The notes below the pieces were generated by a model. That model searched no databases. It had not been told where the DNA came from and saw only the letters and a list, made by a program, of their open reading frames with translations. A stretch of DNA of 64,000 nucleotides from Gammaproteobacteria bacterium (GTDB lineage: Bacteria > Pseudomonadota > Gammaproteobacteria > Tenderiales > Tenderiaceae): positions 1 to 64,000 of the forward strand of contig JACQEP010000010.1 in the NCBI GenBank assembly GCA_016200485.1. The letters are read 5' to 3'. Positions 12,010 through 18,222 of the stretch are shown here, one piece after another; position 1 is the first letter of the stretch, and every line of letters begins with the position of its first letter. A program made the translations under genes and the position numbers.

Positions 12010-12508
12010 TTACTCATGGCCGGGCTTGACAATTTCCCTGTCAATTATTAATTGTAATTCATTTTCAATAGGTTGCAAGATCTTCGCAATCTGATCTTGG
12101 GTCCAGCGGCCAGGGCCAGCCCCCCCTGCGAAAGACTGAATCTCCACCCCCCACACCCATAGTTTTGCTGGCAAAGTCCCCAGCGCCTGCCCCAGGCATA
12201 AGGCATCCCCCACCCCAAAACCATGACTCGACAGCAAACCAGCCTCTTGTGTTGAAAATGGCCATTCAAAACGAGCGACCGCCCCTGGCTGCCTACCGCT
12301 ACTCATCGCATCGATCACCACCCCCTGCGACACATCCACCATTTGTTCCAACAAGGAAATACCAGGCCGATCCAGAGATATCAACTCCACACCGCGACCT
12401 AGCCAGGGTTGTAACCATGGCGCCGCTGACAAAGTATCAATCACTCGCCAACCGATATCATCATCGCCAATTGGGGAGCCAACGCCGATTATTTTCAGAA
12501 AAATCTTT

Positions 12509-12525
<17 letters not shown>
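12010..12525 (-). CDS. [NiFe] hydrogenase maturation endopeptidase
   Basis: HybD/HoxW-family protease that removes the C-terminal peptide of the hydrogenase large subunit after nickel insertion. 171 residues beginning with IIGVGSPIGDDDIGWRV, where the acidic run corresponds to the first nickel-ligand region. VVIDAMSSG and LSSHGFGVGDAL correspond to the second aspartate and the histidine ligand. It overlaps the end of the large-subunit gene by 17 bp, so it is almost certainly dedicated to that protein, whose tail (after the final STH) carries a short removable peptide. Confidence 0.88.
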
Positions 12526-13807
<1,282 letters not shown>

Positions 13808-13843: not shown

Positions 13844-14671
13844 TCAAACCCCTTCCCCCTGCAAGAGGGAGGGAGTTAGTGCCTGCTCTGCTGCGGCAGC
13901 AAATACTGGCGCTTGATTATTGATAAACAGAAAACGGCGGGCGATTTCTTGGTCAGATAAACCAATCATGCGTAATTGATTCGCCAAGGCGGTAGTATTC
14001 GGATTTTCTGACGGCCCATAACAGGCATAACAACCACGACCATGACTCGGACACAAGGCGCCGCATCCGGTTTGCGTCACCGGTCCGAGACAAGGCTCTT
14101 GCCGCGCCACCATAACACAGACGTTTCCCTGGCGCTTACATTCGATACAGACACTGTCACGCACTGGTGCCGGCACCACACCCGATAACAAATCCCGCGT
14201 TGCAGAAAGCACCTGCAGGCTATTCACCGGACAACCCCACAACTCAAGATCAACGCGAACATGTTGTGCGATAGCTGTTGAAGTGGCCAGACTCTCGATA
14301 AATTGCGGCGAAGGATAAATGGCCGCGCGCCAGGCATCGCTATCGGCGCCATTACGCAGCGCCTGTATTCCGCCTGCCGTCGCACAGGCACCAATGGTAA
14401 TCAAATATTTACTCTTCTCACGGATGGCACGAATCCGTTTCGCTTCATCGGGCGTACTAATACTGCCCTCGATAAAGGCGATGTCAACATCCACCTCAGG
14501 CGCCACCATGCCTGCCTCAGCAAAATGCACAATCTGAACCAATTGCGAAAGGGTGAGCAAATCTTCACCGGCATTCAAAAACGCCAACTGACAACCATCG
14601 CAGGAACTAAATTTGTGAACAGCAATTCGGGGACGTGAATCAGACTTCTTCGAGGACTTCACTTTCCACAT
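13844..14671 (-). CDS. hydD: [NiFe] hydrogenase small (delta) subunit
   Basis: Electron-transfer subunit with three iron-sulfur clusters. Proximal-cluster cysteines lie in SSCDGCQLAFLNAG, GACATAGG and WGCPVN; further clusters in CIECKRQGNVC, EPCLGPVTQTGCGALC and CYACYGP. No Tat signal, so it is cytoplasmic as in group 3. The frame extends to an ATG at 14698, but family homology starts at RPRIAVHKF; I chose the ATG at 14669-14671 as the nearest start. Either choice overlaps the preceding four-helix-bundle gene. The last residues (TPSLLQGEGV) are encoded by a CTC-rich palindromic repeat that supplies the stop, so the natural C-terminus has been altered. Confidence 0.88.
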   Translation of the reverse strand: MWKVKSSKKSDSRPRIAVHKFSSCDGCQLAFLNAGEDLLTLSQLVQIVHFAEAGMVAPEVDVDIAFIEGSISTPDEAKRIRAIREKSKYLITIGACATAGGIQALRNGADSDAWRAAIYPSPQFIESLATSTAIAQHVRVDLELWGCPVNSLQVLSATRDLLSGVVPAPVRDSVCIECKRQGNVCVMVARQEPCLGPVTQTGCGALCPSHGRGCYACYGPSENPNTTALANQLRMIGLSDQEIARRFLFINNQAPVFAAAAEQALTPSLLQGEGV

Positions 14672-15044
14672 CCAGGCTAATGCGCGACGCATGAACATGT
14701 GTCATCAAGCTACTGACCAGGAACCCGAGATCTTCGACCAGAAAGTTGATGCGGTGACACAACACTTGCTCGAGATATTTCGCCCGTTCCACCGCTTGCA
14801 TTTGCTGCCCCAAGCGGGCGAGGTGTTGTTTGGCTGTAGTCAGGTAGTGGGAAAATTCAGGCACTAATCCGCGCTCAAAACCCTCGGCCAGATTACCCAT
14901 GATGGCGAAGCTTGCCGTGCGAATCTCATTCTTCAGCTGCCCGTCGCCGCCAAAATCGCTGGCCGCCGTCACACCGAAGATCTCCCAGGCCAATTCCCGC
15001 GACTTGCGCCAAGCCATTTCTTCTTCATAAGAATATGGATTCAT
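14640..15044 (-). CDS. four-helix-bundle protein (S23 / 23S rRNA intervening-sequence family)
   Basis: 134 residues, largely helical. Contains FGVTAASDFGGDGQLKNEIR, then SFAIMGNLAEGFERG and FSHYLTTAKQHLARLGQQ, the conserved pattern of the S23 family (four helix bundle, often forming pentamers). Members are found inside rRNA intervening sequences or alone; function is not established. Here it sits between hydG (19 bp) and hydD (overlap of at least 32 bp) and reads in the same direction, preceded by AGGGAGG. It is not a known hydrogenase gene, so I infer an insertion that has become part of the transcript. Confidence 0.88.
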   Translation of the reverse strand: MNPYSYEEEMAWRKSRELAWEIFGVTAASDFGGDGQLKNEIRTASFAIMGNLAEGFERGLVPEFSHYLTTAKQHLARLGQQMQAVERAKYLEQVLCHRINFLVEDLGFLVSSLMTHVHASRISLDVESEVLEEV

Positions 15045-15063
15045 GCCACAGCCTCCCTGCCGC

Positions 15064-15909
15064 TTAGAACCCCTTATGGCCCATCAGCTGGCTAATTTGA
15101 CTATAGGAAAATACCGGCCCATCCCTACAAACAAAACGGCTACCAAACTGGCAATGGCCGCAATGTCCGACCGCACACTTCATGTTGCGTTCCAAACTCA
15201 TAAAAAGCAAGTCCTCCGGCACGCCCCGCGAACTCAGCCGCTCGACTGCCGCCCGCATCATGCCCTCCGGCCCACACATCATGGCGATGGCGCGGGCCGG
15301 ATCGAACTGCACCTCGTCGAACATCTCGATCACCCGACCTATGCGCCATGGCCACTGCGGACCACCCTTGTCGGCTGCCACCACCACTTGCGTCTGCGGC
15401 AGACTGCGCCAATGCTCGTAACGTTCACGCCACAACAGATCATCACTGTGTTTAACACCCTGCATGATGATCAGCCGCCCAAACCGCTCGCGGCGCTTAA
15501 TAATGTAATTGATCACCGACACCACCGGCGCACAGCCCAGTCCCCCGGTGATGATCACCACATCCCGGCCCTCCGCCAGTGCCAACGGCCAACCGCGCCC
15601 ATACGGGCCGCGAATCCCGACATGGTCTCCGGTTTTCAGCCTGGCCAGGCCACGCGTCACCCGCCCAACGGCACGAATGGTGTGATCATAAAGATGTTCA
15701 TCTTCAGGATCGGAAACGATCGAGATCGCCACCTCGCCGACGCCATAAAGATAGACCATATTGAATTGGCCTGGCTCAAACCGATAACGCTGTTGCACGG
15801 GACCAGTCAACCGCAACCGTAATGTAAAAATGGTGGGCGATTCTTCAATGCGCTCGACGATTTCGGCTTCGGCAGGAAGATAGGGGTTATGGAACACTGC
15901 GTTATTCAT
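15064..15909 (-). CDS. hydG: hydrogenase gamma subunit, FAD/NAD(P)-binding
   Basis: Diaphorase subunit that links the hydrogenase to NADP(H). 281 residues: an FAD-binding domain with FEPGQFNMVYLYGVGE, then IRGPYGRGWPL, a nucleotide-binding loop GGLGCAPVVSVI, and CGPEGMMRAAVERL near residue 220. The C-terminus carries a [2Fe-2S] motif (CAVGHCGHCQFG, later VCRDGP). This is the dihydroorotate-dehydrogenase-electron-transfer/HydG arrangement. It follows hydB after a repeat-filled gap of 169 bp. Confidence 0.9.
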   Translation of the reverse strand: MNNAVFHNPYLPAEAEIVERIEESPTIFTLRLRLTGPVQQRYRFEPGQFNMVYLYGVGEVAISIVSDPEDEHLYDHTIRAVGRVTRGLARLKTGDHVGIRGPYGRGWPLALAEGRDVVIITGGLGCAPVVSVINYIIKRRERFGRLIIMQGVKHSDDLLWRERYEHWRSLPQTQVVVAADKGGPQWPWRIGRVIEMFDEVQFDPARAIAMMCGPEGMMRAAVERLSSRGVPEDLLFMSLERNMKCAVGHCGHCQFGSRFVCRDGPVFSYSQISQLMGHKGF

Positions 15910-16078: not shown

Positions 16079-17182
16079 TCATGCCCCGCCTCCACAAATC
16101 GCCGCCGTTTCTTCGGTGATATCGATCCCCACCGGACACCAACTGATGCAGCGGCCACAACCGACGCAGCCGCTGCGGCCAAATTGGTCATGCCAACTGC
16201 CCAGCTTATGCGTCAACCACTGCCGGTAACGTAACTTTGTCTCGCCGCGCACCAATTGGCCATGCAGTGCACTATGTCCCGCCGTGAAGCAGGAATCCCA
16301 TTCGCGGACATGTTGCGATTCTCTACCATCCAACTTCGCATCATCAAATTCGTTGTGACAAAAACAGGTCGGACATACTTGCGTACAATTGCCGCAGGAA
16401 AGACAGCGCGCCGCCACCTCATCCCAGCGCGGATGCTCAAGATTAGCAAACAACACATCACGCAGATTCCGTCCCGGCAATGCGCGCTGTTGCACACGTT
16501 CGGCCTGCAAACGCTGTTCGCCAGATTCGTAATGTTGATGATCGGTGACAGGCGACATGGCCAGTTGTGAAAAAATCTTCTCACCCGTCTTGCTACCCGC
16601 CGTCACAATAAACCCTGAATCCAACTCCGTCAGCGCCAAATCATAGCCCGCATCGGCGACAGGGCCGTCGCCCGTCGACACACAAAAACACGTCGCCGCC
16701 GGATGACTGCAATTCACCACCACTGTAAACAGAGCTGCGCGACGCGTGCTGTAATACTGATCTTGATAAGCCCCATCGCGAAATACTTTATCCTGAATCT
16801 TCAGTGCCGCGAGATCACAACTGCGCACACCGATCACGGCATAAGGTTCGACTGGCGGCAGGTTTTCGACAAAAGCCAGTCGCCCTTGTGCATCACGCTC
16901 AACACGCCACAAAGTTTCATGAGCTGCAAAGGTAAATGGTTTGAGTGCCTGCGGGCCATTGGCCCAAGCGAAATAACGGGGCTCAGAATGTTGATGCAGT
17001 TGATAATGGCCGGGAGTTTGTTCGTCTTGCCAACCCAGCGGCAATTGCGTCACGGAATCGAGATCATCATAAATAATCGCGCCATCACGCACTTGCGGAC
17101 CGACACAGCGATAGCCCGCCTGCTGCAATTGATCCAGCAAGCTTTGGAATTGTGCGCGCGGTAAAAATCCAGAGCTATTCAC
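16079..17182 (-). CDS. hydB: hydrogenase beta subunit, iron-sulfur protein
   Basis: Electron-transfer subunit, 367 residues, HydB of sulfhydrogenases and related to anaerobic sulfite reductase subunit A. Two ferredoxin-type [4Fe-4S] motifs are present in the C-terminal third: [16 protein letters not shown] and [16 protein letters not shown]. The middle has further cysteines ([22 protein letters not shown]) typical of the family. First gene of the hydrogenase subunit group, 206 bp after the DUF455 gene. Confidence 0.9.
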
Positions 17183-17256: not shown

Positions 17257-17392
17257 GTAGGGCGCAATGCCCAAAACATTCGCTACGCTCACGGGGCAGG
17301 CTCTAACCATCGGGCATGGTGCCGGATGTTTTATCGTTGTGTCGCCTTTGGCGACGGCTTGGTGGATTACGGCAACGCCTCATCCACCCTAC
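17257..17392. repeat. palindromic repeat with GTAGGG/CCCTAC ends
   Basis: A roughly 136-bp segment begins GTAGGGCGCAATGCCC and ends with GGTGGATTACGG, CGCCTCATCCACCCTAC, forming hairpins at both ends. Elements like this are widespread in proteobacterial intergenic DNA. Its right edge overlaps the last codon of the DUF455 gene and provides its stop. Confidence 0.6.
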
Positions 17393-18222
17393 ATCGATGC
17401 GCCAGTTGCCGCCAAACGCTCCAGTGCATCCAACTCAGATTCGGTAAATCCGGCCTGTACCCGTGCCGCCGTATGGAACGGCCCACGTAATTGACCACCG
17501 TAATATTCAGTAATCAGTTCCCGGAAGGTCGCTTGTGAATCAATCCCGCGTTTTTCACATTCAAATTGAAACCAGCGCGAACCGATTTCGACATGACCGA
17601 TTTCATCGCGCAAAATAATTTCCAACACCGCCACGGTTTCTGCATCGTCCACCTTGCGCAAACGCTTCATAATACCCGGCGTCACATCCAAACCCCGCGC
17701 TTCCAACACGCGTGGCACCAGCGCCATGCGCACCATCGGATCAAGCGCCGTCTTGCACGCCATTTCCCACAAGCTGTTATGCGCGGGAAAATCACCATAC
17801 TGATAACCCAGCGCTTCCAATCGCGCATGCAACAGCCCAAAGTGATACGCCTCTTCATCCGCCACCCGAATCCAATCGGCATAAAATTGCGTTGGCATCT
17901 GGCGAAAACGATATACCGCATCCCAGGCCAGATTGATGGCATTGAATTCGATATGCGACAACGCATGTATCAGCGCCGCCCGCCCCTCCACGGTTCCCAG
18001 GCCCCGCTTCGGCACTTCCAAAGGCGACACCAACACCGGTTTCTCCGGTCGACCGGGTTCCTCGATCGGCGCCGGTTCACCCCGCGCTTCGTGCACAAGC
18101 TTACCTTCACGCCAGGCCTGCGCCGCTGCTTGGGTTAGCGTCAGCTTATCCGCGACCGTATTTGCGGCAAGACAGGTTTCAGCCGCGGCAAAGACGTTGT
18201 TCCAGGGGAAAAAGTTATTCAT
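17389..18222 (-). CDS. DUF455 family ferritin-like protein
   Basis: 277 residues, mostly helical. Contains IEFNAINLAWDAVYRF, VADEEAYHFGLL and LRDEIGHVEIGSRWF, with E and ExxH pairs that form a ferritin-like di-iron four-helix site. DUF455 proteins are related to tRNA hydroxylase MiaE and other ferritin-like oxygenases; the substrate is unknown. Same strand as hydB and 206 bp upstream of it, so cotranscription with the hydrogenase is possible but the repeat between them argues against tight coupling. The stop codon comes from the repeat at 17257-17392. Confidence 0.85.
   Translation of the reverse strand: MNNFFPWNNVFAAAETCLAANTVADKLTLTQAAAQAWREGKLVHEARGEPAPIEEPGRPEKPVLVSPLEVPKRGLGTVEGRAALIHALSHIEFNAINLAWDAVYRFRQMPTQFYADWIRVADEEAYHFGLLHARLEALGYQYGDFPAHNSLWEMACKTALDPMVRMALVPRVLEARGLDVTPGIMKRLRKVDDAETVAVLEIILRDEIGHVEIGSRWFQFECEKRGIDSQATFRELITEYYGGQLRGPFHTAARVQAGFTESELDALERLAATGASM

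Follow-up and report, generated by a model that had tools for sequence, protein, structure and literature searches.

S23 proteins are widespread, and we know of no function for them. In Coxiella, the intervening sequence of the 23S rRNA gene carries an S23p open reading frame that, according to excerpts of the published report, was acquired once and then transferred vertically; the reading frame lies in rRNA, its protein is probably not produced in vivo, and it is subject to reductive evolution (PMC4990558). The same excerpts describe the protein of structure 2gsc as a pentamer of four-helix bundles (PMC4990558). A resemblance between PF05635 and Avd, a protein of diversity-generating retroelements, was noted in excerpts of another paper (PMC10053308). 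A full-text literature search returned no title that placed S23 in a hydrogenase operon, and no paper that combined group 3b, hydrogenase and four helix bundle. In excerpts of two papers, hydrogenase was named in the references only (PMC5371394) or in passages that concern another organism (PMC9751133).

We analyzed a stretch of 64,000 nucleotides (hereafter the window; its genome is G000) in which an S23 gene lies inside a [NiFe] hydrogenase cluster. Every gene of this cluster is on the minus strand, and the order is DUF455-hydB-hydG-S23-hydD-hydA-protease. Profile matches identified hydB, the beta (4Fe-4S) subunit (16079–17182); hydG, the gamma (FAD/NAD) subunit (15064–15909); hydD, the small (delta) subunit, whose longest open frame in the list of reading frames spans 13844–14698; and hydA, the large (alpha) subunit (12509–13807). 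The cysteine motifs RxCGxC and DPCxxC of HydA were present as RICGIC and DPCISC, and we take these cysteines to ligate the NiFe center. The cluster also contains a hydrogenase maturation protease (12010–12525; TIGR00072, above cut-off). Sulfhydrogenase subunit models were among the best NCBIfam matches, with all four subunits below the equivalog cut-offs. HydB, HydG, HydD and HydA types occurred together in the one cluster, and on this subunit make-up we take the enzyme to belong to group 3b.

The S23 gene (14640–15044, minus strand) encodes a protein of 134 amino acids from an ATG start. It matched Pfam PF05635 at 46.5 bits (cut-off 33.8, E = 4.6e-12) and TIGR02436 at 43.8 bits (cut-off 24), which makes the product a member of the S23, or 23S rRNA-intervening-sequence-protein, family and bears out the sequence-only reading that an S23 gene sits between hydG and hydD. 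The strong ribosome binding site described in that reading is also real, because a Shine-Dalgarno-like GGGAGG, read from the sequence at 15052–15057 (minus strand), lies 7 nt ahead of the ATG. AlphaFold predicted four helices for the monomer (mean pLDDT 88.5), and the predicted structure is a single-domain four-helix bundle. The best fold match of this model was 2gsc (TM 0.71–0.75 by query length, 0.84–0.86 by target); 2gsc and 2rld ranked first, and the Avd proteins of diversity-generating retroelements came after them. A sequence search of the PDB at E 0.01 returned 2gsc as the sole match (E = 1.2e-11), and by this homology the S23 product is probably a pentamer. We rejected a defence or phage origin of S23, since its search gave no match in PADLOC and none in PHROG at E 0.01. 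We likewise rejected a link to Avd and retroelements, since 5 of the 8 S23-bearing Tenderiaceae genomes, the 2-contig genome G004 among them, had no match to the reverse transcriptase profile RVT_1.

Our sample of Tenderiaceae consisted of 11 genomes, three of which had at least 90% completeness and at most 5% contamination. S23 of this type was found in eight of them. In all seven that carried this hydrogenase (G000, G001, G004, G006, G007, G009 and G010) the gene lay between hydG and hydD, so that the arrangement cannot be put down to chance, and the hydrogenase without S23 was seen in none of the 11 genomes. This clade of S23 genes occupied one site in the genomes examined; a contig scan with patterns that reach close relatives only found seven loci, all of the same kind. 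Each of the 11 genomes had at most two PF05635 genes. The window’s genome has a second S23-like gene (L062, 9285–9758 of G000:C5), which stands between genes for a 719-aa ABC-transporter-like and a 444-aa HlyD-like protein, neighbors that presumably belong to HlyD/type I secretion; the same arrangement occurs in G009 (L129, 4513–4980 of G009:C288), and in L099 (G340) a piece of S23 lies ahead of a similar gene.

The DUF455 gene (PF04305 by Pfam match; 17389–18222, minus strand in the window) heads the cluster across the family, and it remains beside S23 in G005 and L066, where the hydrogenase has been lost. We considered S23 as its obligate partner and rejected the idea: DUF455 occurred in 11 of 11 genomes and S23 in 8, which means that DUF455 does not need S23. 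The converse dependence, of S23 on DUF455, may exist. In G008, which has neither S23 nor the hydrogenase, DUF455 adjoins a phosphoglucomutase-like gene.

To place the insertion among related enzymes, we compared 23 further hydD loci, namely 22 from other families and the 38%-identical second cluster of G005. Junctions were counted in the 22 of these loci where hydG was also seen (L045 stops at a contig end), and S23 stood between hydG and hydD in none of the 22, the second G005 cluster included. The same insertion, which the sequence-only reading had proposed to look for in related clusters, was therefore found throughout the hydrogenase-bearing Tenderiaceae and at none of the 22 other junctions. 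A dedicated assembly factor should be present with the enzyme across its range, and by this count of junctions S23 was not. In 17 of the 21 junctions measured in these relatives, the hydG stop had at least one candidate hydD start close by, between −4 and +7 nt from it (L034 was not caught by the motif). A tight hydG-hydD junction is the usual state, and in Tenderiaceae S23 fills it. Three of the 22 relatives held other spacers at this junction (285 nt; 1147 nt with two ORFs; about 200 nt), as might be expected if the site were permissive to passengers. L057 (3842–6632, G043) has a different hydG-hydD insertion, consisting of a 117-aa ORF and a 215-aa ORF on the opposite strand; L026/L056 (G032) has the 285-nt spacer, and the sole hydD start found there was TTG; and a second, distant hydD-type gene at G010:C16:30981-31736 has one in-frame TGA in its match.

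A class-wide search found an S23 match in 54 of 369 genomes, and 51 of the 54 were outside Tenderiaceae, a scatter that would suit a mobile element. Among 55 loci fetched from outside the family (flanks of about 1.5 kb or less a side), none had a hydrogenase subunit or DUF455 beside S23. A central intact ORF was present in 24 of 27 fetched class loci. The neighbors of these genes were picked by ORF length and the counts are approximate: the upstream neighbor was on the same strand as S23 in 20 of 24 loci, both neighbors were so in 10, and S23 overlapped the next gene by 4 nt in 4. A co-directional setting is thus common for S23, and the hydrogenase case is one instance of it, with a longer overlap.

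We used trees to ask whether S23 had entered the operon once. The nine S23 proteins (from eight genomes and contig L066) formed one clade with support of 100/100, on a long stem branch of 1.94. A tree of hydG, hydD and hydA together, built by a quick method after the result for hydD alone was known, placed the seven operons in one clade (SH-aLRT 99), and the pairs G004 with G009 and G006 with G007 were recovered in both the S23 and the three-gene trees. For hydD alone the family did not form one clade (three changes; 0% of 200 bootstrap trees); this tree was poorly resolved and spoke against a family clade. Because the S23 and three-gene trees each gave one clade, a single old insertion followed by vertical inheritance is likely.

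In the window, hydD overlaps the 3′ end of S23 out of frame, at +1 relative to S23. The overlap would measure 23 nt at the minimum (14640–14662, minus strand), with GTG 14662, the candidate nearest the core, as the hydD start, and 59 nt with the first ATG, 14698, in that role; these two starts and the ATGs at 14671 and 14692 all lie inside S23. The sequence-only reading was correct in that S23 overlaps the start of hydD, and literally wrong in calling the insertion in frame with the operon. The same site and the same +1 frame were seen in 7 of 7 Tenderiaceae operons. In these seven, the S23 stop begins 11.3–14.3 codons ahead of the SCDGCQ motif of HydD; most relatives have the hydD start codon 10–17 codons before the motif. 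That is, S23 ends at about the position where relatives begin hydD, which upholds the claim that the hydD N-terminus was rebuilt on the end of S23, the strongest part of the earlier reading. The distance from the S23 stop to the hydD core varied among genomes by whole codons only, as it should if this interval belongs to the translated part of hydD.

Start codons in the family were not uniform. Candidate hydD starts were ATG and GTG in G000, and GTG in G001 and G010. In G004, G006, G007 and G009, the frame ahead of the hydD core runs back 20 codons to a stop and has no ATG, GTG or TTG in this interval; in relatives, an in-frame ATG, GTG or TTG preceded CxGCQ in all 22 readable loci of 23. The mechanically called ORFs of the four genes begin past the first cysteines. 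A start further inside the gene is implausible, since an iron-sulfur cluster is bound by the CxxC at the N-terminus of HydD. Nor are these four genes explained by simple coupling to an ordinary start. An ATC codon followed by AAG is common to all five operons of the genus Tenderia (g5). We tentatively suggest, as a possibility rather than an expectation, that the four Tenderia genomes make HydD from a near-cognate start (ATC) inside S23, or as an S23-HydD fusion through +1 frameshifting close to the S23 stop. The codon that precedes this stop varies (GTC, CGT, GTT, CGT, AGT, GCC, ATT), and this lack of conservation favors the near-cognate start over the frameshift. A frameshift exactly at the S23 stop is less likely, because most of the pre-stop codons, as we reasoned by hand, would not re-pair; a +1 frameshift may occur at another position. 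If either route were true, a catalytic subunit would have lost its initiation site to the captured gene and would depend obligately on that gene for its synthesis. In these operons, a conserved gene for a hydrogenase subunit thus lacks any standard start codon, and a gene caller limited to ATG, GTG and TTG would begin it past the first cysteines.

We estimated dN/dS for S23 after removing the last 12 codons, as a guard against the overlap with hydD. Within the genus the values were 0.17 (G004/G009), 0.06 (G006/G007; dS 1.3) and 0.11 (G005/L066; dS 0.72), and wider pairs with G000 or G001 gave 0.16–0.30, for computable pairs only and near saturation. A selfish element should lack purifying selection, and the within-genus values of 0.06–0.17 show that S23 is under it.

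The pair G005/L066 was informative because the operon is gone there. At the G005 locus we found DUF455, a short C-terminal stub of hydG, an intact S23 and then a gene of 799–822 aa that follows the hydrogenase cluster in relatives and is, we presume, PEP synthase-like; hydB, most of hydG, hydD, hydA and the protease were absent. The first ~1.25 kb of CAMYKF010000440.1 (L066) had the same layout, including DUF455, plus a decayed stub of hydD. This contig (L066, 1–7722) is filed under a Pirellulaceae MAG, and the ~1.25 kb at its start is Tenderiaceae-like DNA. Its GC content rises from about 0.4 to 0.55 once the Tenderiaceae-like stretch ends, which suggests a chimeric or misbinned contig. The part that we used could be aligned with G005 (491 columns, 82%), and the match resumed past S23. 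L066 shares its FCS sample prefix with G005, and the two therefore do not come from unrelated studies; their S23 genes are 84% identical and thus are not copies of one another. Between the two, pS was 0.46 and pN 0.08, and substitutions by codon position in the first 122 codons numbered 14/8/36. The similar stubs suggest one shared operon loss. If the loss was shared, all of the S23 divergence between G005 and L066 arose without the operon, and selection on S23 is independent of it; independent losses in the two lineages would weaken this argument. Because S23 stayed intact at a dN/dS of 0.11 after the operon was lost, selection on it seems not to need this operon. S23 would then be more than an insert that the host puts up with, and would not be a factor reserved for this enzyme.

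The reading we prefer, and hold to be somewhat probable, is that S23 is a domesticated operon passenger entangled with the start of hydD. The position, the frame, the single clade, the purifying selection and the retention after operon loss are supported by the data. On this reading, an S23 coding sequence would have been inserted between hydG and hydD a single time, in the ancestor of those Tenderiaceae that carry the hydrogenase, at roughly the place of the original hydD start codon, and would thereafter have been kept and passed on vertically. In the window, S23 would now hold the strong ribosome-binding site after hydG, and translation of hydD would begin inside the 3′ end of S23, in the +1 frame, presumably coupled to ribosomes that have just finished S23. 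The S23 product may be a folded four-helix bundle with a selected function of its own, independent of this hydrogenase. As long as the operon is present, the entanglement of S23 with the hydD start would make it costly to lose the gene cleanly, and the protein’s own use would keep S23 once the operon goes. The single insertion event, the translational coupling, the pentamer and the function of the S23 protein are the parts that we infer. Against this reading, the family clade of the hydrogenase genes rests on the quick-method three-gene tree and hydD alone disagrees with it; in addition, the matching presence of S23 and HypD fits a hydrogenase role equally well, though with G005 as the only independent point.

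That hydrogenase role is the alternative that survives best, and we regard it as possible but doubtful. Here the S23 bundle would help NiFe hydrogenases, through assembly, stability or partner binding, and some of those enzymes would be encoded elsewhere, such that S23 would outlive its own operon while another hydrogenase is present. HypD was found in exactly those 8 of 11 genomes that have S23 (in G005 as a fragment at a contig end) and was not found in G002, G003 and G008, which are 88, 98 and 77% complete. Besides S23, G005 retains a second cluster of the hydBGDA type (L059) and a further fragment of a NiFe large subunit. However, S23 lies inside the hydrogenase operon in 7 of the 8 genomes, which leaves G005 as the sole independent point of co-occurrence, S23 is missing from the 22 other junctions, and none of the 55 loci outside the family has a hydrogenase subunit in its flanks of about 1.5 kb or less a side. 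The family’s S23 proteins are acidic (pI 4.7–5.9 in 9 of 9, versus 6.7–10.8 in 24 of 24 class relatives measured), which would fit a recruited protein, but acidic members were also found elsewhere (pI at or below 5.9 in 3 of 28 from the phylum search). We gave this charge shift little weight as a hallmark of domestication: it is clear in the class sample, and acidic or neutral members occur elsewhere in the phylum. Hence the assembly factor of the sequence-only reading finds no support in its strict form, given the intact and constrained S23 in G005 and L066 and the 22 junctions without it, and only a looser role in trans for NiFe hydrogenases in general is possible.

It is very improbable that S23 serves only as a translation leader, that is, that hydD lost its own initiation site and S23 is translated for the sake of HydD while the S23 protein is idle. 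The candidate hydD starts inside S23 and the four operons with no standard start codon are what such a leader predicts, but S23 is still under selection at the amino-acid level between G005 and L066, which have lost hydD or keep only a decayed remnant of it. Least probable, and in our judgment very unlikely, is the tolerated selfish insertion of the sequence-only reading, a mobile or neutral passenger useless to its host: the scatter of S23 across the class, its frequent co-directional neighbors and the other inserts at hydG-hydD junctions are in its favor, but the single vertically inherited clade, the low dN/dS within the genus and in wider pairs, the intact gene after operon loss, the low copy number of PF05635 genes and the 55 outside loci with no hydrogenase alongside all speak against it.

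A choice between selfish insert and assembly factor is thus too narrow, as S23 seems to be under selection for its own sake, locked to hydD by the overlap and untied to this particular enzyme. The locus offers a natural test bed for S23 proteins, with an apparently single old insertion, operons that have or lack it and lineages that lost the enzyme yet keep S23 under selection. It also illustrates how a gene that has absorbed the start codon of the gene next to it can become difficult to shed.

Comparison with the known systems places the locus as follows. It is like Avd (4dwl, 8ub7) in sharing the same fold, at a weaker match (TM about 0.63–0.69 by query). It shares its protein family with the S23p of Coxiella, where excerpts of the report also describe a single acquisition and vertical inheritance (PMC4990558); here, the S23 gene has a strong Shine-Dalgarno sequence and is under purifying selection. 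With the S23/IVP proteins XCC0516 (2gsc) and BT_0352 (2rld) it shares a profile score above cut-off and a four-helix model best matched by 2gsc, but it lies in a protein operon, between hydG and hydD and not inside a 23S rRNA gene, and its product is acidic and belongs to a clade on a long stem. Finally, the operon resembles group 3b-type NAD(P)-linked [NiFe] hydrogenase/sulfhydrogenase operons in its hydB-hydG-hydD-hydA order, subunit profiles and CxxC motifs; it differs from them in scores below the NCBIfam equivalog cut-offs, in the inserted S23 gene and in a hydD start that has been displaced into S23.
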